Below, one piece after another: positions 21,503 to 45,826 of a stretch of 64,000 bases of DNA (its first letter is position 1; each line of letters begins with the position of its first letter). Below the pieces are notes generated by a model. That model ran no database searches, was not told the origin of the DNA, and saw only the letters and a list, made by a program, of their open reading frames with translations. Location of the stretch: contig CANLUY010000002.1 in the NCBI GenBank assembly GCA_947494435.1, positions 992,001 to 1,056,000 on the forward strand, given 5' to 3'. The position numbers were made by a program, and so were the translations under genes. Source of the stretch: an uncultured Litoreibacter sp. (GTDB lineage: Bacteria; Pseudomonadota; Alphaproteobacteria; Rhodobacterales; Rhodobacteraceae).

Positions 21503-22501
21503 ATGACAACGACAGTCGCTATCAACGGATTTGGCCGCATCGGTCGCTGTACTTTGGCACATATCGCACAAAGCGGACGCAACGACGTGCAAGTCGTCGC
21601 GATCAACGCAACCGGCCCGATTGAAACCAATGCGCATCTTCTGAAATACGACTCCGTCCATGGTCGCTTCCCCGGCGAGATCATGACAACCGATGACACG
21701 ATGGATCTAGGTCGCGGCCCAATGAAAGTGTTCTCCACCTACAATCCTGATGAGCTGGACTGGTCCGGCATCGACGTCGTCATGGAATGCACCGGCAAGT
21801 TCAACTCCAAAGAGCAATCACAAGTCCATATCGAACGCGGCGCTAAGCGTGTGCTGATCTCCGCGCCTGGCAAAAACGTCGACAAGACCATTGTCTACGG
21901 CGTCAACCACCGCGATCTGCTACCCGAGCATGGCGTCATCTCCAACGGCTCTTGCACCACCAACTGCCTCGCGCCGCTGGCGAAAGTCCTGAACGATGCC
22001 ATCGGGATCGAGCGTGGGATCATGACCACGATCCACTCCTATACAGGCGACCAGCCAACGCTTGACCGCCGCCATGACGACCTCTATCGCGCCCGCGCCG
22101 CCGCTATGGCGATGATCCCGACGTCCACAGGTGCTGCCAAAGCGATCAGCCAAGTGCTGCCGGAACTGGATGGCAAGCTTGACGGCACCGCAATGCGCGT
22201 GCCCACGCCAAACGTCTCCTGCGTGGACCTGACATTTGAAGCCTCAAAAGACGTGACCGTGGCCGATGTGAACGAGATCGTGAAAGAAGCCGCAGCCGGT
22301 CACATGGGCGCTGTGCTCAGCTACGATCCCGAGCCAAAAGTCTCAATCGACTTTAATCACACGAATTATTCATCAATTTTTGCGCCAGATCAGACCAAGG
22401 TTGTCGGTGGGCGTACCGTTCGGGTATTGGCTTGGTATGACAACGAATGGGGCTTCTCCTGCCGCATGGCCGACGTGGCTGCCGCGATGGGACGCCTCTA
22501 A
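21503..22501 (+). CDS. gap: Glyceraldehyde-3-phosphate dehydrogenase, Ala36 paralogue
   Basis: A 332-residue phosphorylating [25 protein letters not shown] is the dinucleotide-binding loop, [19 protein letters not shown] carries the catalytic Cys, and NEWGFSCRMADV is near the C-terminus. The residue after the second beta strand, which contacts the adenosine ribose, is Ala36 (VVAINATGPIETNAHL) where NAD-specific enzymes have Asp. Loss of this Asp is known from NADP-accepting gluconeogenic GAPDHs such as Bacillus GapB. This copy may therefore serve the biosynthetic direction, unlike the copy at 25493, which keeps Asp. Two candidate operators lie upstream and a 46-codon gene follows. Confidence 0.93.
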   Translation: MTTTVAINGFGRIGRCTLAHIAQSGRNDVQVVAINATGPIETNAHLLKYDSVHGRFPGEIMTTDDTMDLGRGPMKVFSTYNPDELDWSGIDVVMECTGKFNSKEQSQVHIERGAKRVLISAPGKNVDKTIVYGVNHRDLLPEHGVISNGSCTTNCLAPLAKVLNDAIGIERGIMTTIHSYTGDQPTLDRRHDDLYRARAAAMAMIPTSTGAAKAISQVLPELDGKLDGTAMRVPTPNVSCVDLTFEASKDVTVADVNEIVKEAAAGHMGAVLSYDPEPKVSIDFNHTNYSSIFAPDQTKVVGGRTVRVLAWYDNEWGFSCRMADVAAAMGRL

Positions 22502-22528
22502 CTCTGACGCAAAGGCCCTGCCTCAGCC

Positions 22529-22669
22529 ATGACCAACAAAATCGCAATCGCGCTGGGGCTGCTGATCGTCTCCCTACTGGTCCTGAACGCAGTTATGGGC
22601 TGGGAAGCACATGTCTTCCTTGGACGAAAATTCATTGATCTCATCGAATACCTCGCCTTCTGGCGCTAA
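22529..22669 (+). CDS. Small single-TM protein downstream of gap
   Basis: A 46-codon frame, MTNKIAIALGLLIVSLLVLN then AVMGWEAHVFLGRKFIDLIEYLAFWR. Residues 4-23 form one hydrophobic helix, and the C-terminal part is amphipathic and basic/aromatic. It starts 27 bases after the gap stop. I recall small proteins of this type (ending in LIEWIAFWR-like residues) downstream of gap in other Rhodobacterales, which argues it is a real gene. The function is unknown; its position suggests co-transcription with gap. Confidence 0.7.
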   Translation: MTNKIAIALGLLIVSLLVLNAVMGWEAHVFLGRKFIDLIEYLAFWR

Positions 22670-22770
22670 TGATAAACGCACTCCCACTCGGCAAAGCTCA
22701 ATACCGACGTCTCCCTGTAAACGTCGAATAGAAACCAAACGCGTCACGCGCCTAAAAAACCACAAGAAAT

Positions 22771-22798
22771 CACACCTACCCCATTTGGGTGACTTGAT
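22771..22798. promoter_or_regulatory. Shared upstream motif, copy 1 (LuxR-type gene)
   Basis: A 28-bp stretch starting CACACC and ending TTTGGGTGACTTGAT matches, without gaps, 21 of 28 positions of the stretch at 24466-24493 upstream of the VPLPA-CTERM gene. The common core is TTTGGGTGACnTGAT. It lies 50 bp before the LuxR-type start. Probably an operator for autoregulation (inference). Confidence 0.5.
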
Positions 22799-22848
22799 TT
22801 TCTTGGATTTGGTTAAGAAACTTACCACGGTGCAATTTGGTATTTTAA

Positions 22849-24441
22849 ATGGCGAAACAGACTTCTTTAGACGACACGCTACTTGATGTATTTTCGCTGG
22901 TCTCGAACGACGACGCACTGTCAGCACGCAGCGAGGTGATTGCGCATTACCGCAATGGCGAAGGCTCCATCTCAGGATCTGTCATCTGGTGCGACTTTCA
23001 ATCTGACGGCAAATTCCTAAGGGCTGGCGTATCCGATGTCGGACTGATGGAAAGCCGCTCCATCCTGACCAAAAACGGCCACCCTGTCGTGGACGAGATC
23101 ACCGAACACGCCGAATTGCATGGCCTGCAGGCGGGTAACCTGATCCCCTCTACCCAGCGGGACGGGTTTCACTGGTGCATTCCCTACTCTGCCCCCAGCA
23201 CGAACAAACGGCCTGTCCACGGGTTGCGCACGTTGCTGATCACCGAAGACCTGTTTCTCGAAGTGTTCGACCTGTTCAATATCGAAGTGCAACTCACCCC
23301 GGCCGAGAAACGGCTGGTGTACCAACTGATCTCAGGGCTCAACACCAACGAAGCCGCCGAACTGGACGGCGTCTCTGTAGAAACCAAGCGCACGCATCTC
23401 AAACGCGCCATGAGCAAGCTGGACTGCTCCAACCAATCCGCCATCATGCGCTTGGTCGTCTCCCAACTCATCCATGTCCTGTACCTGTGTGAGAACGAGA
23501 CCTCCCAAAACCGGATCATCGAAGCCTTCACCTCAGACCACTTACATGGATCAGTACGACTGTCTTCGCAGCGCCTCCCCAATGGCCGTCTGCAACGCGT
23601 CTGGGAAATGGGCCCCGCGGACGGCAAGCCGCTGTTGGTTCTGCACGGCTATCTTTTCCCGTTCATGATGCTGAACGCACAGGATGCTTTGGAAAAACTT
23701 GGCCGCCGCTTGGTAATCCCCGTGCGCCCCGGATATCTCGACGATCAGGAAAACACGCGGATTTATCATGAAGGCCGGATGATCGAACAAACGGTCGAAG
23801 ACCTCGAAGCGTTCATTCGTCAAACTTGGAGCGGCCCGGTCGACGTCCTGTGCCATGCGACAGGCGCGTATTACGCGATGATCATCGCAAAAAACTCACC
23901 TGACATTTTCTCAAAGCTGATCGTCACATCGATTAATTTGATGATGGACAATGAGGACAAACAGTCTTTATCCGCCAGCTTTCTGGGTGGCATTCGCAAA
24001 CTCGCGAAACATAATGGCATGTATGAAATGCTGGTCCGCCAGTTTCAGAAAACAACCTTCTCGAATGACCGGACGACACGCTTTGTCTTGCGTCGTTTAT
24101 TTCGGGAAAACCGAACGGATCTCGACACATTGAACGGCGTCTTGGGCCACGGTGAAGCCTTCGGGTGGTACCGTGCGCTTCATGCGGCGTCGATGGTGGG
24201 CATCGCGTCTGATTTTGGCTTAGTAAATATCCACGCGGGCGAAGCTTTGGCAGATGTAACTGTCCCCGTCATATTCCTGCATGGGCCCGAAGACTGCTTC
24301 ACTAGCATCGCGGAAATGCAAAGCTACATAGAGCTTTGCCCCTTTGCAGAGTTGAAGATTTTGCCCGAAGGCGGACATCTGGCGATTGCCAGTCACGCAG
24401 CGATGTTCTGGGACCAGATCGAAACCGTTCTGACCGAGTAA
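22849..24441 (+). CDS. LuxR-type HTH fused to alpha/beta-hydrolase domain lacking Ser nucleophile
   Basis: A 530-residue protein in three parts. Residues 1-145 are a PAS-like N-terminal region I do not recognise. Residues 149-205 form a LuxR/GerE helix-turn-helix (LTPAEKRLVYQLISGLNTNEAAELDGVSVETKRTHLKRAMSKL). Residues about 258-530 are an alpha/beta-hydrolase fold (PLLVLHGYLFP; LHGPEDCFTS with the acid; PEGGHLAIASH with the His). The nucleophile elbow reads VLCHATGAYYA, so the G-x-S-x-G Ser is Ala337 and the first Gly is Cys. The domain is probably a ligand-binding, non-catalytic sensor. The DNA-binding domain is internal, unlike ordinary LuxR proteins. There is no clear ribosome site before the ATG. 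Confidence 0.82.
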   Translation: MAKQTSLDDTLLDVFSLVSNDDALSARSEVIAHYRNGEGSISGSVIWCDFQSDGKFLRAGVSDVGLMESRSILTKNGHPVVDEITEHAELHGLQAGNLIPSTQRDGFHWCIPYSAPSTNKRPVHGLRTLLITEDLFLEVFDLFNIEVQLTPAEKRLVYQLISGLNTNEAAELDGVSVETKRTHLKRAMSKLDCSNQSAIMRLVVSQLIHVLYLCENETSQNRIIEAFTSDHLHGSVRLSSQRLPNGRLQRVWEMGPADGKPLLVLHGYLFPFMMLNAQDALEKLGRRLVIPVRPGYLDDQENTRIYHEGRMIEQTVEDLEAFIRQTWSGPVDVLCHATGAYYAMIIAKNSPDIFSKLIVTSINLMMDNEDKQSLSASFLGGIRKLAKHNGMYEMLVRQFQKTTFSNDRTTRFVLRRLFRENRTDLDTLNGVLGHGEAFGWYRALHAASMVGIASDFGLVNIHAGEALADVTVPVIFLHGPEDCFTSIAEMQSYIELCPFAELKILPEGGHLAIASHAAMFWDQIETVLTE

Positions 24442-24465
24442 CATACGGATTTTCATCAAATTTAA

Positions 24466-24493
24466 CACATGTCACCTGTTTGGGTGACGTGAT
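24466..24493. promoter_or_regulatory. Shared upstream motif, copy 2 (VPLPA-CTERM gene)
   Basis: Contains GTCACCTGTTTGGGTGAC (24471-24488), a perfect 6-bp inverted repeat (GTCACC/GGTGAC) with a six-base spacer, the size and shape of a LuxR-type box. It is 115 bp before the VPLPA-CTERM start. Related sequence lies upstream of the LuxR-type gene itself, which suggests the fusion protein binds both sites. Confidence 0.55.
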
Positions 24494-24608
24494 GCTTCTT
24501 AAGCGATTCTAGACATATGTTAGGGGGGAGTCCGCGTAGAATCTGGGCTGCCTTTTTTTTAGGAACTGTCTCGGTAAAGGGTCCGGGTCACAGAAGAAAG
24601 AAACGGTA

Positions 24609-25262
24609 ATGAAAGTAAAGTATCTCGTAGGTTTTGTAGGTGGGGCCATTATGGCCGCCACCATGGCATCAGCGGCTGTCTTGGACTTTAACGGCAGTGG
24701 TCAATTGACAGGTGCGACTGGTGTCGATGTAGACGGTACGCTCTACGATGTCGCATTTGTCGATGGGACATGTGCCAATTTGTTCAATGGATGTGACAAT
24801 CCAATGGATGATTTTGTGTTCCTGACGCAAGCGCTTGCTGACAGCGCGTCGCAAGCATTGCTCAATCAGGTCCTCTTTGACGGCGCCATGGGCAATTTCA
24901 GATCGCAGCCGGAACTGGTATTCGGGATTGATCCGTTCAACCCCGCAGCGCCCAATAACACGGGATCAGTTATCACCGCCTATGAAATAAATGGCGGCGC
25001 AGTGCGTGGATCTACGGCGATCATTTCTAACAATCCCACAACGGCCGGTCAGGTTGGGTCAGCTGTTCTTGGTATCACGAACCGCGACACATCTGCGACA
25101 ACAAGAGCTGGCAGGTCCACAGTTTTTGCGGACTGGAGCGTCTCCAACGTCGTGATCGTTGATCCTCCGATGCCTGCCGTGCCATTGCCTGCTGGTTTCG
25201 TGCTCAGCCTCACCGCATTTGGTGGGCTATTCGGCTTACGCCGTATGAAGCGGAAGTCCTAA
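24609..25262 (+). CDS. Exported VPLPA-CTERM anchored protein
   Basis: A 217-residue secreted protein. Residues 1-23 are a signal peptide (MKVKYLVGFVGGAIMAATMASAA). The middle is a Gly/Asn/Asp-rich beta region (VLDFNGSGQLTGATGVDVDGT, DFVFLTQALADSASQALLNQVLFDG) without a recognised domain; two Cys (CANLFNGC) may form a disulfide. The C-terminus is a sorting signal: VPLPAGFVLSLTAFGGLFGL then a basic RRMKRKS, the VPLPA-CTERM type processed by an exosortase-like enzyme (not in this window). It follows the LuxR-hydrolase fusion after 167 bp with a LuxR-box-like dyad between them, so it is the obvious candidate target. Surface or extracellular matrix role is inferred. Confidence 0.85.
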   Translation: MKVKYLVGFVGGAIMAATMASAAVLDFNGSGQLTGATGVDVDGTLYDVAFVDGTCANLFNGCDNPMDDFVFLTQALADSASQALLNQVLFDGAMGNFRSQPELVFGIDPFNPAAPNNTGSVITAYEINGGAVRGSTAIISNNPTTAGQVGSAVLGITNRDTSATTRAGRSTVFADWSVSNVVIVDPPMPAVPLPAGFVLSLTAFGGLFGLRRMKRKS

Positions 25263-25273
25263 ATCCTATCTTC

Positions 25274-25300
25274 AGCGGGCCAGCGTAATTCTGGCCCGCT
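25274..25300. terminator. Hairpin after the VPLPA-CTERM gene
   Basis: Perfect 10-bp stem AGCGGGCCAG/CTGGCCCGCT with a seven-base loop, 11 bp after the stop. There is no T-run after it (ACCCCAC), so it is a weak or Rho-assisted terminator or an mRNA-stabilising hairpin. Confidence 0.55.
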
Positions 25301-25439
25301 ACCCCACAATTGCGCATTCAAATGCGTGGGTGGCGACGAATTCTCTGCGGATAGCTGCCTTGAATTGGTTTGCCCGGCAAAGCACCCCTCGCCCACATTC
25401 ATCTGCCTCTCAACCTTGACCTTTTCCGCAGAATGCTTT

Positions 25440-25453
25440 TGTTAGCGGTAACA
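25440..25453. promoter_or_regulatory. Central-CG palindrome upstream of second gap
   Basis: TGTTAGCGGTAACA: arms TGTTA and TAACA are a perfect inverted repeat around GCGG, with CG at the centre. It lies 40 bp before the gap start at 25493, in the position of a repressor site over or just after the promoter. The shape fits LacI-family regulators such as the CceR carbon regulator of Rhodobacter; that assignment is inferred. Confidence 0.6.
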
Positions 25454-25492
25454 GCAAACACATTGCAGAGCGCGAAAATCAAGGAGCACAGA

Positions 25493-26497
25493 ATGTCCGT
25501 AAAAGTTGCTATCAACGGGTTTGGCCGCATTGGCCGCAATGTCTTGCGTGGGATCATCGAGTCCGGTCGGACAGATATCGAAGTGATCGCGATCAATGAT
25601 CTTGGACCGGTTGAAACAAACGCGCATCTGCTGCAATTCGACTCCGTCCATGGCCGCTTCCCGCAAGAGGTCACCGTAAAAGGCGATACGATTGATGTCG
25701 GACGTGGCCCAATCGCAGTCACAGCCATTCGTAACCCCGCCGATCTTCCTTGGGCCGACGTGGACATCGTTTTGGAATGCACAGGTATTTTCACCTCGAA
25801 AGAGGCATGCCAAGCCCATCTCGAAAACGGCTCCTCTCGCGTTTTGATCTCTGCCCCGGGCAAACAAGCGGACAAAACAATTGTCTATGGCGTCAATGAA
25901 GGCACGCTGACCGCAGATGACTTGGTCGTTTCAAACGCGTCCTGCACCACGAACTGTCTTGCGCCGATTGCAAAAGTTCTTAACGACAATCTCGGCATCA
26001 ACAAAGGCTTCATGACAACGGTCCACGCCTATACAGGCGACCAGCCAACATTGGACACGATGCACAAAGACCTTTACCGCGCGCGCGCCGCCGCATTGTC
26101 AATGATCCCAACGTCGACCGGCGCCGCAAAAGCCGTCGGTCTGGTGATGCCAGAACTGGATGGCAAGCTCGACGGCGTTGCAATCCGCGTCCCTACCCCA
26201 AATGTCAGCTGCGTAGATTTGACCTTTGAAGCCGCACGGGAGACCACGGCAGAAGAGATCGACGCAATGATGAAAGCCGCGTCAGAGAAAGGCCCGCTCA
26301 AGGGAATATTGGGATATTCCGACAGGGCGCTCGTCTCTTGCGATTTTAACCATGATCCGCATTCCTCCACCTATGCGACAGAACAGACCAAGGTTTTGGG
26401 TGGTAACATGGTGCGCGTGCTTAGCTGGTATGACAATGAATGGGGCTTCTCCAACCGGATGGCTGATACAGCGGTTGCGATGGGAAAATTGATCTAG
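25493..26497 (+). CDS. gap: Glyceraldehyde-3-phosphate dehydrogenase, Asp36 paralogue
   Basis: A 334-residue phosphorylating GAPDH. The ATG at 25493 is preceded by AAGGAG eight bases upstream; upstream in-frame extension has no similarity to [25 protein letters not shown] binds the cofactor, [20 protein letters not shown] carries the catalytic Cys, and [37 protein letters not shown] binds phosphate. Asp36 is kept ([16 protein letters not shown]), as in NAD-dependent glycolytic enzymes. It sits directly before pgk in the glycolytic block, with a strong terminator and a 98-bp gap between them. Confidence 0.95.
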
Positions 26498-33896: not shown

Positions 33897-34706
33897 CTAG
33901 ACTTGGCCAGAAAGAAGTTGATCCATTGTTATCGAAGGTTGTGAACAACCTGCTTCGCCGACAATCTTTGCCGGAACGCCAGCCACAGTTTTCATCGGAG
34001 GAACCTTTTCCAGAACGACCGAACCAGCGGCTACACGCGAACAATGGCCTACTGTTATATTGCCCAACACCTTGGCTCCGGCACCAATTAGGACTCCATC
34101 CTCAATTTTTGGGTGTCGATCATCGTCCTCTTTTCCCGTTCCACCAAGCGTAACAGAATGCAGCATTGATACATTGTCGCCTACAATTGCTGTTTCACCG
34201 ATGACAATGGAATGGGCATGATCAATCATTATCCCACGCCCAATTTTTGCTGCAGGATGCACGTCGATCCCAAAGACTTCGCTGACGCGCATTTGGAAAA
34301 AGTAAGCTAAATCCTTTCGCCCCTCCTTCCAAAGCCAATGACCGACGCGATACGCCTGAACAGCCTGAAATCCCTTGAAATAAAGCAACGGTTGAAGAAA
34401 CCGATGACATGCCGGGTCACGTTCAAAAACAGCGACAATATCTGCGCGTGCAGCATCTCCCAAGGTCTTGTCAGACGCATATGCCTCGTCGGCGATTTCT
34501 CTAAGGATCTGCTCAGACATCTCCGCTGAGGCTAGTTTCTGCGACATCCGGAATGACAGAGCACGTTCAAGACTATTGTGGTGAAGAACTGTTCCATGGA
34601 TCATGCCACCCAAAAGGGGTTCATCCGCAATCGCATCACGAGCTTCCTCGGATATGCGCTGCCAAACGGGATCAATTTCGGCGACGTTGCTGCTAGGTTG
34701 CTGCAT
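33897..34706 (-). CDS. cysE: Serine O-acetyltransferase
   Basis: A 269-residue cytoplasmic enzyme making O-acetylserine from serine and acetyl-CoA, the first step of cysteine synthesis. The N-terminal helical domain (PVWQRISEEARDAIADEPLLGGMIHGTVLHHNSLERAL) is followed by left-handed beta-helix hexapeptides (VHPAAKIGRGIMIDHAHSIVIGETAIVGDNVSMLHSVTLGG, IGAGAKVLGNITVGHCSRVAAGSVV), with the catalytic His in DHAHS and the C-terminal tail that normally binds the cysteine inhibitor. The ATG at 34706 has AGGAG six bases upstream. The neighbourhood of cysE beside the GTA cluster is conserved in Rhodobacterales. Confidence 0.94.
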   Translation of the reverse strand: MQQPSSNVAEIDPVWQRISEEARDAIADEPLLGGMIHGTVLHHNSLERALSFRMSQKLASAEMSEQILREIADEAYASDKTLGDAARADIVAVFERDPACHRFLQPLLYFKGFQAVQAYRVGHWLWKEGRKDLAYFFQMRVSEVFGIDVHPAAKIGRGIMIDHAHSIVIGETAIVGDNVSMLHSVTLGGTGKEDDDRHPKIEDGVLIGAGAKVLGNITVGHCSRVAAGSVVLEKVPPMKTVAGVPAKIVGEAGCSQPSITMDQLLSGQV

Positions 34707-34806
34707 AACCAACTCCTGTATGTCGGCAATTTACCTACTATAACAACAACCACAATTCCATGACCAATGCGGTAGTGTACACTAAGCTGTGAAAACCTGC
34801 CAAAAT

Positions 34807-35523
34807 CTAATCCGCGCTCGGCAAATCAAATTGCATCAGATGCACAGCAAGTCTGACGGTACCGGCGCTAAAATTTCCACCATTCGCAGTTAGTCTCAAT
34901 GAAGTAGGAACGTAATAAGCAACTGGCTGACCGGTGACGCCGCGAAGCCACGCATTGGCCGTGAGGCCAAGGCTTGAACCATAGCGGGTTTCAGCTCCGT
35001 TCACGCCCAACGACCAGTCGGACAAGTCTCCAGTAATTTCGCTTAGAACACGCCCCGTTACAGCCAAAACGCTGGTATGCGCTGGGATGATGAAACCTGT
35101 GTCCTCAATCGCCCCACCACCAGACAGGATGACATCCGTCTCGACGACTTCTGCCCGCAGTGCCGCACGACTGACGGAGACGGCCAACAAGTTTTCGATC
35201 CAATGAGCTCCATCAAAGGTCAACCGAACAGCCTCATCAGCCACCCAAACATTCCAACCAAATAGCGGCTCTAAAAAAACCCAGCTACCGTTTAGGAAGG
35301 AGGCCATTTTTCCATCCTGCCCAACCCACGCATCTGTTCCACCGGCAGCGATCAAATAGCTCTCACCCTCTGAAACGACGAATGGTGGTGCATTGAGAAC
35401 GCGACTCTCGACAGATAATTGCATTGTCGCATCAATACGCGACAAAGCCTCGTTCACAGTGACATGTTTTTGCGCCTGCGCTGATGCAATCAATGGCAAT
35501 TTCAGTTTTGCTGTTTCAGACAT
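34807..35523 (-). CDS. DUF2793 protein at the end of the GTA operon
   Basis: A 238-residue protein. Residues about 1-95 are a DUF2793 domain: SETAKLKLPLIASAQAQKHVTVNEALSRIDATMQLSVESR, GGTDAWVGQDGKMASFLNGSW and the W-rich FGWNVWVADEAVRLTFDGAHW. The C-terminal half is a beta-rich region (VILSGGGAIEDTGFIIPAHTSVLAVTGRV ... YYVPTSLRLTANGGNFSAGTVRLAVHL) resembling receptor-binding or spike domains. The start overlaps the end of the megatron gene by eight bases, so it is co-translated with the GTA genes. In the Rhodobacter GTA, DUF2793-type proteins belong to the particle surface. A host-binding spike or fibre role is likely but inferred. Confidence 0.8.
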   Translation of the reverse strand: MSETAKLKLPLIASAQAQKHVTVNEALSRIDATMQLSVESRVLNAPPFVVSEGESYLIAAGGTDAWVGQDGKMASFLNGSWVFLEPLFGWNVWVADEAVRLTFDGAHWIENLLAVSVSRAALRAEVVETDVILSGGGAIEDTGFIIPAHTSVLAVTGRVLSEITGDLSDWSLGVNGAETRYGSSLGLTANAWLRGVTGQPVAYYVPTSLRLTANGGNFSAGTVRLAVHLMQFDLPSAD

Positions 35524-38500
35524 AGATTATTTTCCTTGCGTAAGGGCCAGGCCCGAAACTTTGTGAAATTTGCGAGACACGGATTTCAAAAGGAGCACTG
35601 ACCCCGTCAGAGGTCGCGGTCACGTCCGCATAAGTCCAATGTGGATGATCCACCTGTTCTTCTCGAATAATTGCCCCCTCCTTAATAATTTGCAGCAAGT
35701 ATAGTTCGCTGGTTTCTCCCAACGGAACCTCAACTGAAGACCAGCTATCTCCATCAATTCGCGTGCGTCTGATCCATGAAAAGCTCCTCCCACTCGGGCC
35801 TCGCGTTGCTTTTAGCTGTGCCGGTGAATAGGGCCTGAGGCCAATACCGTCGAAAGCTTCGACGTAATGTCGATAGGAAACGTCATCATAACCCTTCGCC
35901 GCTGGGCCAATTCGATAATGTCTTTGAAGGTCACGTTGCGATGCGTCTAGGGCGATCTGTTCTGCTGCGCCATCGAGAAGCACAAAACGAGAGTTTGCCG
36001 GCCAAACGTTGGGCATCACGGCGTCTGTTCCAGCCTGCCCCCGCAGCAAGCCGGAAAGCTCATATTTGTTCTCTGCCACTAAGACGGCATCAGAGAATTG
36101 AAAAACTTCCCAACGCCCGGTCGTTCCATCACCAATCGCGGCAACATTGGCACCATTCAAAACTTGAAGACGACCCTTGGAACTGAGCGTTCCGTTCCAC
36201 AATTTTACTTCAAGTATTGCTCCATCTGACCAAAGTCCCGGACGTGAGGAATATAGAGGTTCTTCCGTCAAACCGATGACCGATGGGCGTTCAATCAGTC
36301 TATTTAGGGTGTAGTCACTGTCTTCAGTGGCGGAAAAAAGTGCGGCTGTTCCTGGCCAAGGACGGCCAGACACAGCCACATACGGCGCATGAGGCACCTT
36401 CTCCCCTGACAGTAGTGGTAAATCCATAAACTGCGTAATGAGTGGCGATGGTTTGGTGAACCTACGAATTTGTGGAAGTTCATCGTCCAGACGCGGTGGT
36501 GCATAAACCTGCTTTTCCACACGCGTAGCTTCGATCAAACGCTCATTCGCGTCTTCTATTCGATCAATTCTGTATTGCGCATCTCCACCATCTCTAGAGC
36601 CTACCCTGATCCAGTCCCCAGCCTTCACATCACTCCGTGAAGGAGGAAGCGTCAGTGTTACGCTGTCGCGCGATACACGGGACTCGACCAACCAACGTTC
36701 AACCGTCAATTGCGCTTCAGATGCCGTTAAGTAGATTGGTAGATCATTTTGAGTAGACAATGGAGACTCGTCCGAAGGATAACGAGCAGACACGACGTGG
36801 CTCTCAAACGCAGCTTCACCAGCCGTATAACCAAGACGAACCGTCCCTATTAGCTCCGCCTCTGGTGCTCTCGAAAATTCGATTGCAGTGTCTGCATCTT
36901 CAGGCAGGACATAGTCTTCACTTCCGACAAAGTGCAGATCAGCGGCGTCACGATTACAAAAAACCAACGTACCGCCGCGTTCAATTGCGTCAAAACCATA
37001 TGTCACCATAAGGCTCTGCAATGACGCCCTGGCAGATTCTAGCTCAGTTACTGAATATCCCCTTACGATCCCATGAAGCGCACTCACATCGTAAGAGATC
37101 ACTCCTGAGAACTCACAAATCTCCGCAACGACAGAAGCCAACGTCTGTACTGAGCTTCTCCCATTGAGCCAATGTCCTGTCAGATAATTCTTCCCATCGC
37201 TCCAAATTTCCAAGTTGTTTGGGAAATCAGGCCACGGGCGAGCATCCCAAGCCCAAATATGCGATTTGGTGACATCGACCATTTGGCCTGAGTAAAGGCT
37301 CGATGGCGGGTTTTTAGTTGGGTCTGAGAAATGCAGGTCATAAGCCCGAAGAAACTGAAGCTGAGCGTAATCATCGCGGGATCCGTTCGAATAGTAGGGT
37401 CGCGCGCTTTCGCTGGACTTGTCGTCAAGAAATTTGTTTGGTTGATTTGGGCCTTTATCAATGGCTGCACAGCCCAATTCGGTAAACCAAATCGGTTTTG
37501 ACTCAGGAACCCAACTGGTGGGATTTACCGCTCTGGTTCCGTTGATACGATCAAAATGCGGCTGCCCCCACCAGCCTACTAAGTCTTTATGTCGGAAAAC
37601 CCAGTCCTCTCCGTACGCTCCATCAGTAATTGGTGTACGGACTTGATCGTCCCGATCCGATTGTGAGGCATAAAACCAATCAAACCCCTCGCCACCTGCC
37701 ACATTGGCCATCAAATAGTCCAACTCATAGGGGCTACCGAAGGAAGCATCCAAATGCGTATCCCCATCGCGCCAATCGGAGAGCGGCATGTAATTGTCTA
37801 TTCCAATGAAATCGATAGCTGGATCCGACCAAAGCGGGTCGAGATGAAAGAGAACATCCCCACTTCCATCTTGCGGGTGATATCCAAAATACTCTGACCA
37901 GTCGGATGCGTAGCTAATCTTGGAATTTGGAAGGATAGCTTTGACGTCTGCAGCCAGCGCTCTCAAAGCATCGACAGCCGGAAATTCACCTAAATCATCC
38001 CGTATCTGGGTCAGAGCACGCATCTCCGACCCTATACAGAATGACGATACTCCCCCAGTAGCAGCACAAAGATGGGCATAGTGTAGGATAAAGCGCCTGT
38101 AAGAAAACTCTGATGGCCCTGTATAGGACACTGACGTCCCATCAACGCTAAAATCACTTGGAAGAGCCGTCCCAAAGAACGCGTCAACTTCAACGCGCGC
38201 TTGAGCTGATTGATCTGTGGTCCCGGGAACTTCCGGAGCAAGCTCAGTCGTAATGCGCCCACGCCAAGGTAATACAGGTTGCCCTATGCCAGCAGTCCAG
38301 GGATTTGGTAAAGTGTTCCCCTCGAGAACTTCCATTAACAAGAATGGGTAGAACATCACATCTTGCCCAGCCGCTTGAAGTGCGTGGATAGCTTCAACAA
38401 CTGAAGCATCAGTTGGCGTGCCGCCGTAAATCGGCCTACCATCAACGCGACCGACACTCTCGGCATCTGCACGGGCAATGCCGTTTACGCTCCAAGAAGC

Positions 38501-39490
38501 ATGCCCGTCTTGCGCCCATTGCGATTGATTTTGGTCGACGACCACAGGACTACCTAAACTGGGTTCCGTTGGTGCACCGCCAGCCTCGACTTTGGGTTTG
38601 CATATGCAAAAGGCGGCACGTAGGTCATCACCGAACCAACTCACGACGAGAGACGTAGACTTACTTTTCGGAAGTTCGGTTGTCAGGGCATTCAGCGACG
38701 AAACCAAATCGACTTGGCCGTCCTCTGAATTGATGTTGGCAGGCGGTTCGCCGTCACCGGAAGCAAAGACAGGTGTGGTTGCGAGGGCAAATTCTCCACT
38801 TCCCGGAAGAAGTGTAACGCCCCGAACGATATCTGCCAGCGACCCAGCTTCGGTATGATGTTTTGGTTGAGAAGGCCGGACAACTTCGAATGTGAATTGC
38901 GGCACGCGATTTCCATAAGGTTCCAACGGAATGTCTTCGAAGACCACGTAGGCCAAACCACGATAAGCCGGAACCTGTCCCGCTCCTTCAATCGCGGTCA
39001 TAAGAGGATCTGGGAGTTGATCAGGTGATCCAGTGTAAACCCTCATATTTAGATCGTTGTTCTGTACGATACTGCCATCCGCCCAAACGCGACCGACCCG
39101 CGCAATTTCTCCTTCGCACAAGGCGATAGCCACGCTAATCGTGTATGAATAGCTACGCGCAGTAGGCCCTTTGGGCGCACCTTTCCCGCCGGTCTGGGTC
39201 GTCGTTACTGTCTCTCGGTAATTCGATGTCCAGATAACATTCCCAGGAATGCGAGCCCGCCCGAATACCCGGGGGATAGCACCGCCTTCGCTCGCTCCCA
39301 TGACACGCATGCGATCAAGCTTGCCTGTCTCTACGGTTTGGCTACCAGTGCCCATCAACCGCTGATCAATGGCTTTTCCAAGTGTCGCACCGATCGCGCG
39401 TCCAATGACAGCCGAGCTGAGGCCAAATGCGCCACCGCCTAACGAGCCGCCGATCGCAGCGCCAGCCGCGGACAAAAGAATGGTTGCCAT
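35516..39490 (-). CDS. GTA baseplate megatron (g15), TIM-barrel-like
   Basis: A 1324-residue tail-tip protein. It opens with a Gly/Ala-rich hydrophobic segment (residues 4-45, LLSAAGAAIGGSLGGGAFGL on), which in the RcGTA megatron is thought to insert in the host membrane. The phage-tail hub region follows (VMGASEGGAIPRVFGRARIPGNVIWTSN). A GTA TIM-barrel-like, glycoside-hydrolase-like domain spans about 430-720 (FCIGSEMRALTQIRDD, FIGIDNYMPLSDW, KPIWFTELGCAA with a Glu in the expected acid position). Beta-rich tail domains finish it. It should form the baseplate centre and contact the recipient cell. Its stop overlaps the DUF2793 start. Confidence 0.93.
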   Translation of the reverse strand: MATILLSAAGAAIGGSLGGGAFGLSSAVIGRAIGATLGKAIDQRLMGTGSQTVETGKLDRMRVMGASEGGAIPRVFGRARIPGNVIWTSNYRETVTTTQTGGKGAPKGPTARSYSYTISVAIALCEGEIARVGRVWADGSIVQNNDLNMRVYTGSPDQLPDPLMTAIEGAGQVPAYRGLAYVVFEDIPLEPYGNRVPQFTFEVVRPSQPKHHTEAGSLADIVRGVTLLPGSGEFALATTPVFASGDGEPPANINSEDGQVDLVSSLNALTTELPKSKSTSLVVSWFGDDLRAAFCICKPKVEAGGAPTEPSLGSPVVVDQNQSQWAQDGHASWSVNGIARADAESVGRVDGRPIYGGTPTDASVVEAIHALQAAGQDVMFYPFLLMEVLEGNTLPNPWTAGIGQPVLPWRGRITTELAPEVPGTTDQSAQARVEVDAFFGTALPSDFSVDGTSVSYTGPSEFSYRRFILHYAHLCAATGGVSSFCIGSEMRALTQIRDDLGEFPAVDALRALAADVKAILPNSKISYASDWSEYFGYHPQDGSGDVLFHLDPLWSDPAIDFIGIDNYMPLSDWRDGDTHLDASFGSPYELDYLMANVAGGEGFDWFYASQSDRDDQVRTPITDGAYGEDWVFRHKDLVGWWGQPHFDRINGTRAVNPTSWVPESKPIWFTELGCAAIDKGPNQPNKFLDDKSSESARPYYSNGSRDDYAQLQFLRAYDLHFSDPTKNPPSSLYSGQMVDVTKSHIWAWDARPWPDFPNNLEIWSDGKNYLTGHWLNGRSSVQTLASVVAEICEFSGVISYDVSALHGIVRGYSVTELESARASLQSLMVTYGFDAIERGGTLVFCNRDAADLHFVGSEDYVLPEDADTAIEFSRAPEAELIGTVRLGYTAGEAAFESHVVSARYPSDESPLSTQNDLPIYLTASEAQLTVERWLVESRVSRDSVTLTLPPSRSDVKAGDWIRVGSRDGGDAQYRIDRIEDANERLIEATRVEKQVYAPPRLDDELPQIRRFTKPSPLITQFMDLPLLSGEKVPHAPYVAVSGRPWPGTAALFSATEDSDYTLNRLIERPSVIGLTEEPLYSSRPGLWSDGAILEVKLWNGTLSSKGRLQVLNGANVAAIGDGTTGRWEVFQFSDAVLVAENKYELSGLLRGQAGTDAVMPNVWPANSRFVLLDGAAEQIALDASQRDLQRHYRIGPAAKGYDDVSYRHYVEAFDGIGLRPYSPAQLKATRGPSGRSFSWIRRTRIDGDSWSSVEVPLGETSELYLLQIIKEGAIIREEQVDHPHWTYADVTATSDGVSAPFEIRVSQISQSFGPGPYARKIIYV

Positions 39491-39555
39491 GCGGCACCTC
39501 GTTCAATGAAAATTGATTTGTAAAAGCAGTGCTGGCTAGTGTTTGAGCACCAATC

Positions 39556-39996
39556 TTAAGCGTCGGGAAATCTAAACCGCGCAGCAACACGACGCCGCCA
39601 CGGTTTGGAAAACGGTGACAGTTCCACCCCATGGCCGCTATAGGCGTGAATGAAGGCAGGCTCTCGCCCGGATCGCGCCAGAATTCCCAAGTGTTTGGCT
39701 ACGCTGCCATGACGCATACGGAATAGAATAACATCGCCCGCAGAGGCTTCCGCCGCATCGGTTTGAATTAAATGTCGCTTTGCTGCGAGAAACAGGTCTT
39801 CCCTCCCTTGCGGCTCAGACCAGTCCGCACTGTAGGCCGGCGTTTCTTCCGGCTCTTGCCCATAAAGCGCACGCCAAACACCCCGCAACAAACCCAAACA
39901 GTCCGTTCCCGCCCCTTTGCAGGAAGCTTGGTGCCGGTATGGTGTACCGACCCACTCTATTGCCTCAGCGACAGCACGATCTGCGATCTCACTCAT
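39556..39996 (-). CDS. GTA NlpC/P60 cell-wall peptidase (g14)
   Basis: A 146-residue NlpC/P60 cysteine peptidase. The N-terminal EAIEWVGTPYRHQASCKGAGTDCLGLLRGVW contains the catalytic Cys in the TDCLGL motif, and HGSVAKHLGILARSGREPAFIHAYSGHGVE supplies the His region. Within the particle it is expected to cut peptidoglycan so the tail can reach the recipient membrane. It is coupled to the preceding g13 gene by an ATGA overlap. The gap to the megatron gene is 65 bp, one of the few clear spacers in the cluster. Length is normal for the GTA family member. Confidence 0.93.
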   Translation of the reverse strand: MSEIADRAVAEAIEWVGTPYRHQASCKGAGTDCLGLLRGVWRALYGQEPEETPAYSADWSEPQGREDLFLAAKRHLIQTDAAEASAGDVILFRMRHGSVAKHLGILARSGREPAFIHAYSGHGVELSPFSKPWRRRVAARFRFPDA

Positions 39997-40871
39997 TGAT
40001 ACCGGCTCCGTCCATCATTATTGGTAGATGCAGATGGATAACCCATAAGCCAATCTTCTCCGGGAATATGTGGAAATCCGCGAAAATTCAGTAAGTTGTC
40101 AAATTTATCTCGGCAAGTCTGTAGACACTTGTCACACCCTGCTTCCAACAACACAGCATCACCGACAGTGACGTCCGCGCGGAACTCTTCCCATAGTTCA
40201 ATTTTGCGCTGCCCGTCGCTTACAAGATCCGACTTGATTGCTCCACTCAAACCCTCGGCAGCGCCGCTCATCACTTCGCAGCGACCTCGCGCAAACCACC
40301 CTTCAGAAAAGGACGAATGTTCTTCAAAAATTAGAACGCGATTGTCTTCAATACCAACAATCACGGTGTCCAAGCGCAGCGTCGGAGACTCTAAATCGAC
40401 ACCACAAGCCGTATCACCAAGAAGAGCCTGACAACCACGTTGAAAGACCGCACCAACAGGTTGATTAAGCCCTTCGCTTAACCCTCGCAACTCAGCGTGA
40501 AACGCACCGTCGATGCACTTAATTTCACCAATGCTTCCGGAAAATTGCAATTCTCGCTGGGTAACGTCTTGCCAATTGACAAGCCAAGATTTCACATCGG
40601 CACCATCAAATCGCCCTGCAGATATATCAGCCTCCGTCACCGAAATATCTGACAAAGCGCCTACAGCTTGAGAATTATCGACCGCCAAGCCCGTAACCTG
40701 CTCCATCGCTCTAGCGGTCATCCCGCTTTCCGCTTTGAAAGAAATGCCGTCAAAGGAAACTGAAATGTCATGGTCTGTGAAACCAAAGACTCTGCCATCT
40801 CTCCGGATCACGGCCCAGCATCGACATACAGTGGTCGTTTTGGTTTGTAGATGTTCGAGAAGGCCCGTCAT
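39993..40871 (-). CDS. GTA DUF2163 hub protein (g13)
   Basis: A 292-residue protein with DUF2163 features: TTTVCRCWAVIRRDGRVFGFTDHDISVSFDG at the start, VDNSQAVGALSDISVTEADI, and a four-Cys C-terminal motif LLEAGCDKCLQTCRDKFDNLLNFRGFPHIPGEDWLMGYP that in the RcGTA structure binds an iron-sulfur cluster or metal. It forms the tail hub between the distal tail ring and the megatron. Overlaps g12 upstream and g14 downstream by four bases each. The Cys residues are all present. Confidence 0.92.
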   Translation of the reverse strand: MTGLLEHLQTKTTTVCRCWAVIRRDGRVFGFTDHDISVSFDGISFKAESGMTARAMEQVTGLAVDNSQAVGALSDISVTEADISAGRFDGADVKSWLVNWQDVTQRELQFSGSIGEIKCIDGAFHAELRGLSEGLNQPVGAVFQRGCQALLGDTACGVDLESPTLRLDTVIVGIEDNRVLIFEEHSSFSEGWFARGRCEVMSGAAEGLSGAIKSDLVSDGQRKIELWEEFRADVTVGDAVLLEAGCDKCLQTCRDKFDNLLNFRGFPHIPGEDWLMGYPSASTNNDGRSRYQ

Positions 40872-41500
40872 ATGCGCACCTCGACGACTGGGACATTTGG
40901 AACTTCGCCCGCTTGAAAAGAGGCAACGCCAGTCTGGATGACGTCGGTGTCAAAACGAACAGGCACGTCAAACTCAAAACCTGCAGAAACACTTATCCCG
41001 GGCGCAGGAGGCGTCAAAAACGTGACGATTCCAGTGGTGAGGTCAATCGTCCAATCAAAACCCTCAACAGTAACAAGTCCGTCCAATCCAACAGTGACGG
41101 TTCCATCGACCGGTTTGGTGATCGGGCGCACATAACTTGTTCCACCAGATGCGTAGGTCTTAGTTATCTGAAAGCTGCTTTCGACACCGTCGCCAGTTCC
41201 AATCAGTTGGTCCTCAAAATTAACCTCCGCAGTTGCTGTACTAGACTTATAGTCCGACCAATCTTTCCATCGAAACGCATGCAACTGTCCCTGCCTCGCT
41301 TCAAAGAACGAGATCATTTCAGATACATCGTCCTGCGACCGCAATCCGAAGCCCGCATCATATCTGCGGCGTGAATGTGCCCAGGGCGTATTTCTTTCTT
41401 CAAACCCATTCGCCAGCGTGACCACTTCGGTACGTCGCTCCGGTCCACCAAGGGAACCAAAAGACAATGCCGCCGGAAAGCGTACTTCATGAAAGCTCAT
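40868..41500 (-). CDS. GTA distal tail protein, DUF2460 (g12)
   Basis: A 210-residue protein of the DUF2460 family. Signature: SFHEVRFPAALSFGSLGGPERRTEV, GFEERNTPWAHSRRRYDAGFGLRSQDDVSEMISFFEARQGQLHAFRWKDWSDYKS, then a beta-rich end DWTIDLTTGIVTFLTPPAPGISVSAGFEFDVPVRFDTD. Such proteins form the distal tail ring that joins tube and hub. The start is 12 bases after the tape-measure stop, and the stop overlaps g13. Length and motifs are typical. Confidence 0.93.
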   Translation of the reverse strand: MSFHEVRFPAALSFGSLGGPERRTEVVTLANGFEERNTPWAHSRRRYDAGFGLRSQDDVSEMISFFEARQGQLHAFRWKDWSDYKSSTATAEVNFEDQLIGTGDGVESSFQITKTYASGGTSYVRPITKPVDGTVTVGLDGLVTVEGFDWTIDLTTGIVTFLTPPAPGISVSAGFEFDVPVRFDTDVIQTGVASFQAGEVPNVPVVEVRI

Positions 41501-41511
41501 TTTAGACCTCT

Positions 41512-42177
41512 TTAGCGATTGCGTTGACCGGCAGCCATCATCCGGCTCATCCGAGCCGCGATCTGGCTCTCAGAGCGTTGGAAACCTGCGACGTTAGGGG
41601 TCGAGATATTCATAACGACTTGCACAGGTCTGCCTCCACCACCTGACGCGACGCCCAATTTGCCATCGGGACCGCGTGACAGCGGCATAATCGCTTCAGG
41701 TCCCGCTTCTCCCATCAGACCTATACCACCCCTCATCGGAAAATGTGTCGGTCCCCCGATAACTCCGCCTTTTGCAAAGGGCATCACGCGACCTTGGGAA
41801 AAGCTACCGCCTTTCTCGAAAGGCAAAATACCCGAAACAACGGAATTCACACCATTCGCGAGGATTGAACCCAACCCATCCTGAACTGGCTTCATCGCAG
41901 AGTTATAAGCCGCATTGATCATGCTTGAAGCGACAGTCTTGAGAGCGTCTGAAAGCTTCATCCCATCAAATGCCAGGCCGTCGAATGCTTTACGTAACCC
42001 GCCTCCAATAGACAGCGACAGGGATTGTACCTCTTTCGAGGTGTAAACCATCGTCTGCCTCATGCCCGCCAACTCGCCTGCGAACGTCGACAAAACAGAC
42101 TGCGCTCCCCCCAACGAGCTATCCAATCCATCAATCCGGTTTTCTAATTCATCCAAACTGCCAAAAATCTCACTCAT
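41512..42177 (-). CDS. GTA tail tape measure protein (g11)
   Basis: A 221-residue short tape-measure protein that sets GTA tail length. The N-terminus is helical (MSEIFGSLDELENRIDGLDSSLGGAQSVLSTFAGELAGMRQ). Glycine-rich hydrophobic segments follow, then FSQGRVMPFAKGGVIGGPTHFPMRGGIGLMGEAGPEAIMPLSRG, the stretch found in tape-measure C-termini of lambda-like phages and GTAs. ATG 42177 lies inside the end of the upstream small gene, overlapping by eight bases. The small size fits the short GTA tail. Confidence 0.92.
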   Translation of the reverse strand: MSEIFGSLDELENRIDGLDSSLGGAQSVLSTFAGELAGMRQTMVYTSKEVQSLSLSIGGGLRKAFDGLAFDGMKLSDALKTVASSMINAAYNSAMKPVQDGLGSILANGVNSVVSGILPFEKGGSFSQGRVMPFAKGGVIGGPTHFPMRGGIGLMGEAGPEAIMPLSRGPDGKLGVASGGGGRPVQVVMNISTPNVAGFQRSESQIAARMSRMMAAGQRNR

Positions 42178-42367
42178 TGCGATCAAACTCCCCGCGATGC
42201 GCTGCGTCCAATTCCATAAGCCGAGCCCTAGTCAGTGGTGGATCTTGACCTTCAACACCCAAAATGATGCTGAGCTCGTATGGCGTAAGTGCCCAAAACT
42301 GCTCAGGCTGAAGACCAGCACCACGCAAACCAGCCTTCATCATATGAATCCAATTCAAACCGCTCAT
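42170..42367 (-). CDS. GTA small tail-assembly chaperone, rcc01693 family (g10.1)
   Basis: A 65-residue protein: WIHMMKAGLRGAGLQPEQFWALTPYELSIILG and PPLTRARLMELDAAHRGE. The pattern QPEQFWALTPYEL is characteristic of the GTA rcc01693 family and of phage tail assembly chaperones of the downstream type. With g10 it probably keeps tape measure soluble during assembly, by analogy with phage gpG/gpGT pairs. It overlaps g10 (four bases) and the tape measure gene (eight bases). No frameshift-type slippery sequence was examined in detail. Confidence 0.85.
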   Translation of the reverse strand: MSGLNWIHMMKAGLRGAGLQPEQFWALTPYELSIILGVEGQDPPLTRARLMELDAAHRGEFDRNE

Positions 42368-42681
42368 AGAGACGGTGCCGCAAAGGCTCGGGCCAACAGC
42401 TGCGCCGCAGCTTTGGTGGCCGCCATCAACCCACCCTCAATTTCGACAGTGAGCAGATCAGCCGACGTGCCTGTCCAACCACCTCCACGTAGCCCAGCAA
42501 TAAGCAAAGCAAGAACGTCACCGGTTGCAAATGCGCCTGTTTCGAAGCGCTCAATCAGCTCAACAATGGTTTCATCTCGCAGTTCTGCTTCCAACTCCGC
42601 CAAAGCTCCAAGTGTCAGCTTGAGAGCATGCTCCTGACCATCCAACGTGACTGAGACTTCGCCAGCCCAAGGGTTCACCAT
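42364..42681 (-). CDS. GTA tail chaperone gp10 family (g10)
   Basis: A 105-residue protein of the GTA-gp10 type: VNPWAGEVSVTLDGQEHALKLTLGALAELEAELRDETIVELIERFETGAFATGDVLALLIAGLRGGG. The family carries a tail-tube-binding beta strand plus helices and acts as an assembly chaperone. The ATG at 42681 overlaps the stop of the tail tube gene (ATGA); a TTG one codon upstream is less likely. It is coupled to the rcc01693-like gene downstream. Length is typical. Confidence 0.9.
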   Translation of the reverse strand: MVNPWAGEVSVTLDGQEHALKLTLGALAELEAELRDETIVELIERFETGAFATGDVLALLIAGLRGGGWTGTSADLLTVEIEGGLMAATKAAAQLLARAFAAPSL

Positions 42682-43100
42682 CAAACGGCGACCGGTGCGA
42701 AAGTCACAGCTGACGCAGACGCCATCGCCAATTCATATGTTGCTTCTCCATCATGGGAGCCCGCGTACTCTATGGATGTGATCTGAAACTTTCCCTCTAC
42801 GGTCCCGAAATCCGGAATGATGACTTGGAAATCAGGCATCTCTCCATTGAAAAAGATCTCCCGGGCACGTTCATCGGTCTGATCATCGCGAAAGACGCCC
42901 GATCCCGACAACGACGCAGATTTGACCCCTGCACCTGCAAGGAGCTCGCGCCATCCCCCTTGGCTCTCAAGCGTTGTGACATCGACTTGCTCTGCATTGA
43001 ATGAAATGCGTGTAGCTCTCAAACCAGCGAAGGTTTCAAAGCTACCAGCGCCCGTCACGTCTACCTTGAGTAATAAATCCTTACCTCTTTGCACTGCCAT
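42681..43100 (-). CDS. GTA major tail tube protein, TP901-1 family (g9)
   Basis: A 139-residue beta-sandwich protein that stacks in hexamers to form the tail tube. The opening AVQRGKDLLLKVDVTGAGSFETFAGLRATRISFNAEQVDVTTLESQGGWRELL is the TP901-1-type tail protein pattern, followed by SGVFRDDQTDERAREIFFNGEMPDFQVIIPDFGTVEGKFQITSIEY. The ATG at 43100 has GGAG about nine bases upstream and matches the family start; an ATG four codons further upstream is possible but lacks support. Stop overlaps g10. Confidence 0.93.
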   Translation of the reverse strand: MAVQRGKDLLLKVDVTGAGSFETFAGLRATRISFNAEQVDVTTLESQGGWRELLAGAGVKSASLSGSGVFRDDQTDERAREIFFNGEMPDFQVIIPDFGTVEGKFQITSIEYAGSHDGEATYELAMASASAVTFAPVAV

Positions 43101-43150
43101 TGAGGTCTCCAATTCTGATATGATTTAGATGAATGTTGATTGGTGCAGAT

Positions 43151-44489: not shown

Positions 44490-44576
44490 CACGCACCTCC
44501 GCAGGCAAGTTCAGTTTTAAAGAAAGGAGGCCCCGCCCGCGCGCCACAAGCAGGCAGGGCCGATCTCAATCCAGTC

Positions 44577-45791: not shown

Positions 45792-45826
45792 GAACTCACC
45801 TTAGGTTTGAAAAATAGGTCGGGCGG

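Follow-up and report, generated by a model that had tools for sequence, protein, structure and literature searches.

A regulator in which a LuxR-type helix-turn-helix (HTH) is fused to an alpha/beta-hydrolase fold with alanine in place of the nucleophilic serine lies beside the gene for an exported VPLPA-CTERM-like protein in an uncultured Litoreibacter sp., and the best explanation of the pair, to which we give a probability of roughly 0.58, is that of a local one-component regulator of itself and of the adjacent gene, with the hydrolase domain acting as a non-catalytic sensor or dimeriser. In this proposal the HTH would bind a candidate operator that lies ahead of each of the two genes, directly 5' of a -35-like element, and the regulator would control its own gene together with the VPLPA-type gene downstream, more likely as an activator. 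The hydrolase domain would serve as a ligand-sensing or dimerising module whose catalysis has been lost here (Ala for Ser), as it appears to have been in most of the relatives sampled. Control of the neighbouring gene is supported at the level of sequence, and such a pairing suggests a little-studied way to switch surface proteins on and off. If true, marine alphaproteobacteria have a direct, kinase-free path by which a small molecule alters the cell surface, and hydrolase folds have been turned into sensors of bacterial transcription factors. Short DNA probes carrying the candidate operators would allow the claim to be tested.

Parts of this architecture are familiar. Like the LuxR/GerE one-component regulators such as MalT and the LuxR solos, the protein carries a LuxR-type HTH and a sensor-like domain in one chain; unlike them, its HTH sits mid-chain, before an alpha/beta-hydrolase, with no match to an autoinducer-binding or receiver domain. 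It shares its fold and weak sequence matches with esterases, enol-lactonase (PcaD), BchO and haloalkane dehalogenases, from which it differs in its fusion to an HTH, its Ser-to-Ala replacement and a triad degraded in most sampled relatives. In plants, GID1, D14 and KAI2 use a hydrolase fold as a hormone receptor, the full triad being lost in GID1; the likeness, by fold and proposed role, would be one of analogy, since here the domain is bacterial and joined directly to a DNA-binding domain. The 217-aa neighbour resembles the PEP-CTERM/VPLPA-CTERM targets of exosortase in being exported with a VPLPA-like sorting tail. To our knowledge, the regulators linked to PEP-CTERM systems are two-component rather than hydrolase fusions. 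A literature search, mostly at listing level, found no paper on HTH-hydrolase regulator fusions. Among the papers listed, PMC12530212 is the one that mentions VPLPA-CTERM; passages of PMC3684757 include a PEP-CTERM transcriptional regulator and kinase in a gene list and describe EmbRS/BmfRS of Rubrivivax, LuxR-type HTH regulators acting on biofilm/matrix genes, as REC-domain response regulators with kinases, and those passages mention no hydrolase domain for them.

Domain order of the regulator

The window, by which we mean the whole 64,000-nucleotide stretch of DNA analysed, carries the pair on its forward (+) strand between two tandem GAPDH genes (21503..22501 and 25490..26497, both +). The regulator gene (22849..24441) encodes 530 aa comprising an N-terminal domain, a LuxR-type HTH and an alpha/beta-hydrolase domain. 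Residues 1-145 (22849..23283) form a beta-beta-beta-alpha-beta-beta-beta unit in an AlphaFold2 model (pLDDT 81.9 for this domain, mean 83.9 for the protein), which by topology only may be PAS/Cache-like. That assignment is unproven: no PDB entry was matched by Foldseek with E below 0.001 (best E 0.014), the three top matches are to a chemoreceptor sensor domain and are listed together with unrelated folds, and Pfam PAS matches in the relatives L060 and L212 are weak and under cut-off. The HTH (residues 148-202, 23290..23454) scores 18.6 bits against the Pfam GerE cut-off of 23.5. With E 2.4e-4 it ranks 13th among the genome's 14 GerE matches, and we therefore take it to be real but divergent; L212 clears the same cut-off with 24.2 bits. 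At E <= 1, Pfam finds neither an autoinducer-binding domain ahead of the HTH nor a receiver (REC) domain in the protein.

The hydrolase domain, with limits taken from the model (residues 236-530, 23554..24438), falls under the Pfam cut-offs for Hydrolase_4 (23 bits, cut-off 27) and Abhydrolase_1 (14.9 bits, cut-off 25.8), and homologues score above cut-off. The fold itself is present: at E <= 0.001 the model gives 1475 matches in the PDB, and the titles of the 50 listed are those of esterases (one of which is designed), dehalogenases, a thioesterase, a peroxidase and further entries of hydrolase type. A sequence-only reading of this DNA had described an internal LuxR HTH followed by a hydrolase fold with a C-H-A-T-G elbow and intact-looking Asp and His loops, and had called for a structure prediction; ORF, Pfam, model and alignment agree on the former, and the prediction recovered the fold.

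The surface-protein gene and the shared upstream element

The next gene (24609..25262, +) encodes 217 aa with a VPLPA motif, a hydrophobic stretch, a basic tail and a signal-like N-terminus, the signal and tail being recognised by eye. Its C-terminal sorting segment (residues 191-215, 25179..25253) scores 21.0 bits against TIGR03370 alone and 24.0 in the genome search, where the curated cut-off is 25.35, and 17 of the genome's 23 VPLPA matches exceed that cut-off. The product is probably surface-bound, and its earlier description as an exported VPLPA-CTERM protein holds in the form of a VPLPA-like protein scoring under the curated cut-off.

The two genes are preceded by a common element, the direct repeat D1, which contains a 28-nt match (P 0.001 in 1000 dinucleotide shuffles; P 0.007 for a 16-nt match) and places candidate operator 1 at 22771..22798, ahead of the regulator, and candidate operator 2 at 24466..24493, ahead of the VPLPA gene, both on the + strand. 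The sequence TTTGGGTGACNTGAT precedes both genes, with two exact matches in the 3.89-Mb genome and none elsewhere; its reversed control has no exact match in the genome. Within candidate operator 1, positions 22784-22798 read TTTGGGTGACTTGAT, in which TTGAT may belong to a -35 element; at 24471-24488 candidate operator 2 has the perfect dyad GTCACC-N6-GGTGAC. No consensus sigma-70 promoter was found at either site.

The second site might instead be read as the intrinsic terminator of the regulator gene, since a terminator scan reports, 27-50 nt past the stop codon, a 10-pair dyad (24468-24491) whose tail contains T, and candidate operator 1 is a weaker terminator-like site too (6 pairs). We consider this very improbable: the tail is interrupted (ATGCTTCTTA), and the 3' half of the dyad with the following TGAT is found again ahead of the regulator, in unchanged orientation and some 100 nt downstream of 22669, where the nearest upstream ORF ends. 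The 28-nt repeat is absent from the sequence-only reading. Before the Tateyamaria regulators no element shared with the window is recognisable, nor is there one common to the two Tateyamaria genomes. A CCCC-N4-GGGT resemblance before the L143 and L145 regulators was seen by eye and is not counted.

Surface-gene neighbours among orthologues and paralogues

The regulator belongs to a well-supported clade of 9 rows (SH-aLRT 99) that is rare. Among 20 other genomes of the genus no orthologue was found (weak partial matches only, in G005 and G006); a search across the class, covering 385 genomes and using the Nitratireductor orthologue as query, returned the window's own regulator only; a phage collection gave no match and a first scan of genome contigs none. 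The VPLPA protein likewise has no match in the same 20 congeneric genomes, and the pair has been seen in one genome only. The idea that a VPLPA gene is always adjacent fails among the orthologues, being ruled out as a rule by 0 of 8 loci elsewhere (seven loci and that of G708), and holds among the full-length L060-type paralogues considered below (4/4). Four of the eight orthologue loci have a surface-type neighbour of another kind (two autotransporters, one cadherin-like, one RTX), so that with the window included a surface-type gene adjoins in 5/9.

The paralogous dead-hydrolase regulators of clade B (6 rows, SH-aLRT 99) show a parallel arrangement. A VPLPA gene adjoins all four full-length L060-type regulators and a two-partner-secretion (TPS) transporter gene both L059-type ones, and the pairing is retained by members with the triad states N/D/Y (L060), Y/D/Y (L167), N/D/F (L169) and A/D/G (L059 and L207). 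Each of the four L060-type loci has one GCATAC-N10-GTATGC dyad (<=1 mismatch) where either the regulator or the VPLPA gene begins, whereas 906 kb from other loci contain 2 such sites; because the motif was derived from L060 and L168, L167 and L169 are its independent cases. In L167, in L168 and at the L169 VPLPA gene, the dyad lies within 5' ends that were called mechanically, so its promoter placement in these three rests on presumed later starts. In L169 a 1-mismatch dyad precedes the presumed start of the VPLPA gene and a 2-mismatch dyad the regulator; comparing these two upstream stretches directly gave no significant match (P 0.11 and 0.43). L059 and L207 share TGATGCAATTGTACYAAAG between regulator and TPS gene, and this sequence is absent elsewhere in 211 loci. 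The local-regulator reading is slightly weakened by those dyads that overlap called ORF ends and by G012, where the fifth L060-type member is a 243-aa fragment and the 7 kb retrieved contain no VPLPA gene.

Two family clades adjoin changing genes for surface or secreted proteins, namely VPLPA-CTERM, autotransporter, TPS, RTX and cadherin-like. In a neighbourhood scan of 74 loci (omitting, for example, G028, G048, G061 and G005:C19, and also G628, G112, G553, G541, G495 and G640), 11/13 marker genes lay within 800 bp of the regulator, where 4.0 were expected (P 2.8e-5); the marker types were picked after some loci were known, and with those loci removed 4/6 were near (P 0.02). Starts in the L-numbered loci were mechanically called, and ORFs may consequently be too long. 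Of the 59 loci that belong to neither the window clade nor clade B, one (L048) has a near marker, and of 12 named plasmid-borne relatives five have a surface- or secretion-type neighbour and seven none at hand.

The catalytic triad and rival readings

In the window regulator the Ser-Asp-His triad is incomplete. The elbow C-H-A-T-G (23851..23865, +; context L-C-H-A-T-G-A) places Ala337 (GCG, 23857-23859) at the nucleophile position, while alignment with homologues shows the acid Asp482 (24292..24294) and the base His510 (24376..24378) to be retained. A second Ala elbow, CQATG, occurs in G708 (Tateyamaria), where the His is lost as well, giving A/D/Q; its congener L142, the nearest homologue at 53% identity, has an HSSG elbow with Asp and His. 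Since L142 keeps Ser-Asp-His and the triad is complete in 5/8 aligned orthologue rows (window row included), the Ala elbow does not define the lineage, and as a fixed lineage mark it is ruled out. What had been proposed as a fixed module of Ala elbow and VPLPA gene is therefore contradicted twice over, by the Ser of L142 and by the orthologue loci. Decay itself is widespread: the elbow Ser is absent in 53 of 75 sampled relatives and ambiguous in 7 more (V/D/H members with a VSSG elbow, kept ambiguous because a one-residue shift would bring back Ser), Gln stands in place of His in 43, and these changes span large clades of the family tree. The relatives were the top matches to two queries, so that the fractions do not describe a random sample; among them a degraded triad is, as judged from the alignment, the norm. 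The view of a dead hydrolase accordingly stands for this protein and G708, with decay common, and is tempered by a closest homologue that retains Ser. The further suggestion that a dead hydrolase switches a surface gene survives as a hypothesis for the family, on account of the common upstream element, the clade B pairing with its dyad motif and the widespread triad decay.

A bolder and more tentative reading, which we would not yet favour, extends this to a large alphaproteobacterial family of one-component receptors. In these the hydrolase fold, having in most cases lost Ser and exchanged His for Gln, would be the ligand-binding half of a LuxR-type factor, and at least two clades would be dedicated to the switching of one adjacent, exchangeable surface gene by one regulator; such proteins would be the bacterial equivalent of hormone receptors derived from hydrolases, coupled directly to DNA. 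Alternatively, the domain may be an enzyme now or until recently, with S/D/H relatives hydrolysing their own inducer or modifying a metabolite and the window Ala a recent loss. Complete triads persist in 11/75 relatives, including the nearest homologue and four further orthologues, and the named relative L213 has Asp at the nucleophile position with Asp and His. We nevertheless judge this unlikely, as loss of Ser and of His runs through large clades, surface-gene pairing persists among dead members, and the window regulator's ORF is intact. The two Tateyamaria proteins, L142 with Ser-Asp-His and the dead G708, make enzyme and receptor modes directly comparable within one genus.

Quite unlikely, in our estimation, is a reading in which a variable spot carries the regulator and the VPLPA gene as cargo with no relation to each other, the repeat being another regulator's site or chance. 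The stretch between the GAPDH genes does differ among genomes of the genus, the pair's orthologues are nowhere else seen together, and in G100 the VPLPA protein has a relative (34%) whose gene adjoins other genes. Against this stand the repeat ahead of both genes, with no further exact copy, and the parallel pairing and motifs of clade B. Within the genome, two of the 14 GerE genes, both fused regulators, lie within 3 kb of a VPLPA match; the chance of this is 0.09 for 2/14 GerE genes and 0.01 for 2/5 fused ones.

A gene pair set between two GAPDH genes

In the host genome (12 contigs, 3.89 Mb), the gene for the fused regulator (22849-24441, 530 aa) and the next gene, encoding the VPLPA-CTERM-like exported protein (24609-25262, 217 aa), are flanked by two GAPDH genes in tandem, and the stretch between these (window 22502-25489) varies in length and content among members of the genus. 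The two GAPDH genes are neighbours in 16 of 20 other genus members, 298-6476 bp apart and with differing content between them; about 130 kb separates them in one genome, G009, and a further three carry them on separate contigs. The regulator has no orthologue in these 20 genomes, with only weak partial matches in G005 and G006, and the VPLPA protein matches nothing in them at E <= 1e-4. Directly 3' of the first GAPDH gene, an ORF of 46 aa (22529-22669, + strand; MTNKIAIALGL...LIEYLAFWR) has recognisable relatives at the same position in all six genus loci checked (L090, L095, L097, L099, L102 and L103) and is predicted to encode a conserved small membrane-like protein; its length falls below the threshold used for ORF calling in the window. 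A relative of the VPLPA protein (34%, with a VPLPP tail) is found in genome G100, from another family of the class (L171:5323-5925, - strand), where it adjoins a pyruvate-kinase-like gene, neighbours there being named by eye. Elsewhere in the window lies a gene-transfer-agent-like cluster (33897-49359, - strand), whose five scanned proteins gave GTA_TIM/Rcc01698-like, DUF2460, phage capsid, portal and terminase domains.

Surface genes beside fused regulators

Scanning of 74 family loci for VPLPA tails, autotransporter beta-domains, TPS transporters and RTX repeats, using home-made models or motifs for marker types chosen partly after the fact and with genes in some relatives' genomes called mechanically, yielded 13 marker genes. 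Eleven of these lie no more than 800 bp from the regulator, where random placement would give 4.0 (P 2.8e-5). Without the loci that had suggested the markers, four of six are near the regulator (P 0.02). The neighbour families were confirmed by Pfam or NCBIfam (PF03797, PF03865, PF00353 and PF17963). With clades assigned from a tree of 75 rows, near markers outside the window regulator's orthologue clade and a paralogous clade, clade B, were found at one of 59 loci (L048, an autotransporter). These patterns fit local regulators in these two clades of the larger family, each dedicated to the surface gene next to it. In the host genome itself, two of 14 GerE genes have a VPLPA match no more than 3 kb away (P 0.09 by chance), or two of five when fused regulators alone are counted (chance 0.01); C1:488764, a third fused gene with a GerE match, lies far away from all VPLPA matches.

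The orthologue clade (nine members, SH-aLRT 99) has a surface-type neighbour in five: the VPLPA gene in the window, autotransporters in Tateyamaria (L136) and a congener (L155), an RTX gene 785 bp off in Shimia and a Big_9/Cadherin_4 protein in Kiloniellales. At two Nitratireductor loci, glycosyltransferase genes lie no more than 3.5 kb away; L145 and L137 have neither kind of neighbour, and a patatin gene adjoins the L137 regulator. In clade B (six members, SH-aLRT 99), a VPLPA gene neighbours all four L060-type regulators, those of L060, L167 and L168 exceeding the TIGR03370 cut-off and that of L169 falling below it, and a TPS gene neighbours both L059-type regulators. A fifth L060-type match, a 243-aa fragment in G012 left out of the marker scan, lacked a VPLPA gene across the 7 kb analysed. 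The Ala-elbow receptor co-conserved with VPLPA genes that the sequence-only reading proposed fails among orthologues but comes near to the pattern of clade B. At L059 (G000:C5:5000-18000), an A/D/G regulator (nucleophile/acid/base) adjoins genes for a ShlB/FhaC-type transporter and a large exoprotein, on a 54-kb contig that is probably a plasmid because neighbouring DNA matches plasmid repA/repB genes.

Among 12 loci of named plasmid-borne relatives, a surface- or secretion-type gene stands close to the regulator in five: Hint in Aliiroseovarius, VWA in Pseudosulfitobacter, HYR in Maritalea, TbpB-like and Slam genes in S. meliloti, and, in Ruegeria TM1040, a gene for a hypothetical protein with a signal, followed by a VWA gene. 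The other seven lack so close a neighbour; among them, a VWA gene stands three genes away in Agrobacterium and Peteryoungia, and in two Paracoccus loci a gene for a calcium-binding protein is at least two genes away. In Agrobacterium RAC06 (L214) and Peteryoungia (L218), genes for AraC, a hypothetical protein and VWA precede the fused regulator in the same order and on the opposite strand.

Domain architecture and the fate of the catalytic triad

Pfam places GerE at residues 148-202 of the regulator (18.6 bits, cut-off 23.5) and hydrolase models at about residues 261-515, each below its own cut-off; homologues L142 and L143 pass that of Abhydrolase_1. An AlphaFold2 model built with the sequences of the regulator and seven relatives reaches a mean pLDDT of 83.9, and the PDB matches listed for it are hydrolase-type entries. 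The N-terminal part of the regulator (residues 1-145) is predicted to fold as three strands followed by a helix and three more strands; its top three matches in a structure search were to a chemoreceptor sensor domain, and none was significant. Pfam detected the HTH in two of four plasmid-borne relatives scanned (L212 and L213, not L215 or L217). Near another fused regulator, a gene at L061:2672-3745 (- strand) shows by eye the reverse domain order, with a hydrolase-like start and a LuxR-type HTH-like end. No description of such HTH-hydrolase fusions was found in the literature searched, a search that most subscription journals lay outside.

Aligned with seven orthologue loci, the window regulator reads A/D/H. 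Five of these loci (Tateyamaria L142, Nitratireductor L143, L145, L147 and Kiloniellales L148) keep S/D/H, Shimia L144 has S/D/Q and Roseobacter L146 G/D/Q, and a ninth orthologue, in G708 (68% identity to L142), has A/D/Q. The nearest homologue (53%) thus has Ser, while its congener shares Ala with the window regulator. Among 75 distinct fused regulators, taken as top hits, S/D/H is intact in 11, Ser remains with another residue lost in four, the elbow is non-Ser in 53 and seven are ambiguous (V/D/H with a neighbouring Ser). Gly replaces the elbow Ser in 26 of the 75, Gln occupies the His position in 43, and Asp is kept in 72. At least eight changes between Ser and non-Ser are needed on the tree of the whole set, ambiguous rows excluded and direction not inferred. 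The Gln and Gly replacements follow the clades of the tree, a pattern that may point to selection on pocket residues and not to random decay. None of the 12 named plasmid-borne relatives has S/D/H, and the Asp/Asp/His of L213 could be a catalytic triad. Pairing with surface genes persists in regulators with a lost triad, so catalysis is not needed for it. Because the domain is retained, Gln and Asp are common and hydrolase folds serve as receptors in other systems, we infer that the hydrolase domain may sense a ligand.

Candidate elements upstream of the paired genes

Three regulator sets each have a candidate element of their own near the adjacent surface gene: a repeat in the window, a sequence shared by the TPS loci, and a dyad in the L060-type loci. 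The window repeat is a 28-nt pair, 75% identical and the longest direct repeat within 22500-25500. One copy (22771-22798) stops 50 nt short of the regulator and the second (24466-24493) 115 nt short of the VPLPA gene. The core of the repeat, TTTGGGTGACNTGAT, occurs in exact form at two places in the genome (reversed control, 0), and the two sites with one mismatch both fall within other open reading frames; against 1000 dinucleotide shuffles of both upstream stretches, P was 0.001 for the 28-nt match and 0.007 for a 16-nt match. The downstream copy forms a perfect dyad, GTCACC-N6-GGTGAC. Both copies run into (T/G)TGAT, which could mark the position of a -35 box, and the position just before such a box is a usual one for an activator. 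A promoter scan found no consensus promoter at either copy, and both appear in it as terminator-like.

In clade B, TGATGCAATTGTACYAAAG is common to both TPS loci (L059 and L207), between divergent genes, with no further occurrence among 211 loci searched. The L060-type dyad, GCATAC-N10-GTATGC, lies exact between the divergent regulator and VPLPA genes of L060, and at the presumed regulator start in L168 (exact) and L167 (one mismatch). In L169, where the two genes are in tandem as in the window, the VPLPA gene has a copy with one mismatch where its start is presumed, and a copy with two mismatches precedes the regulator. Across 906 kb of other loci the dyad occurs exactly nowhere, twice at up to one mismatch and 13 times at up to two. 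In L167, in L168 and, for L169, at its VPLPA gene, mechanically called ORFs span the dyad; if it is a promoter element, these ORFs must really begin further inside.
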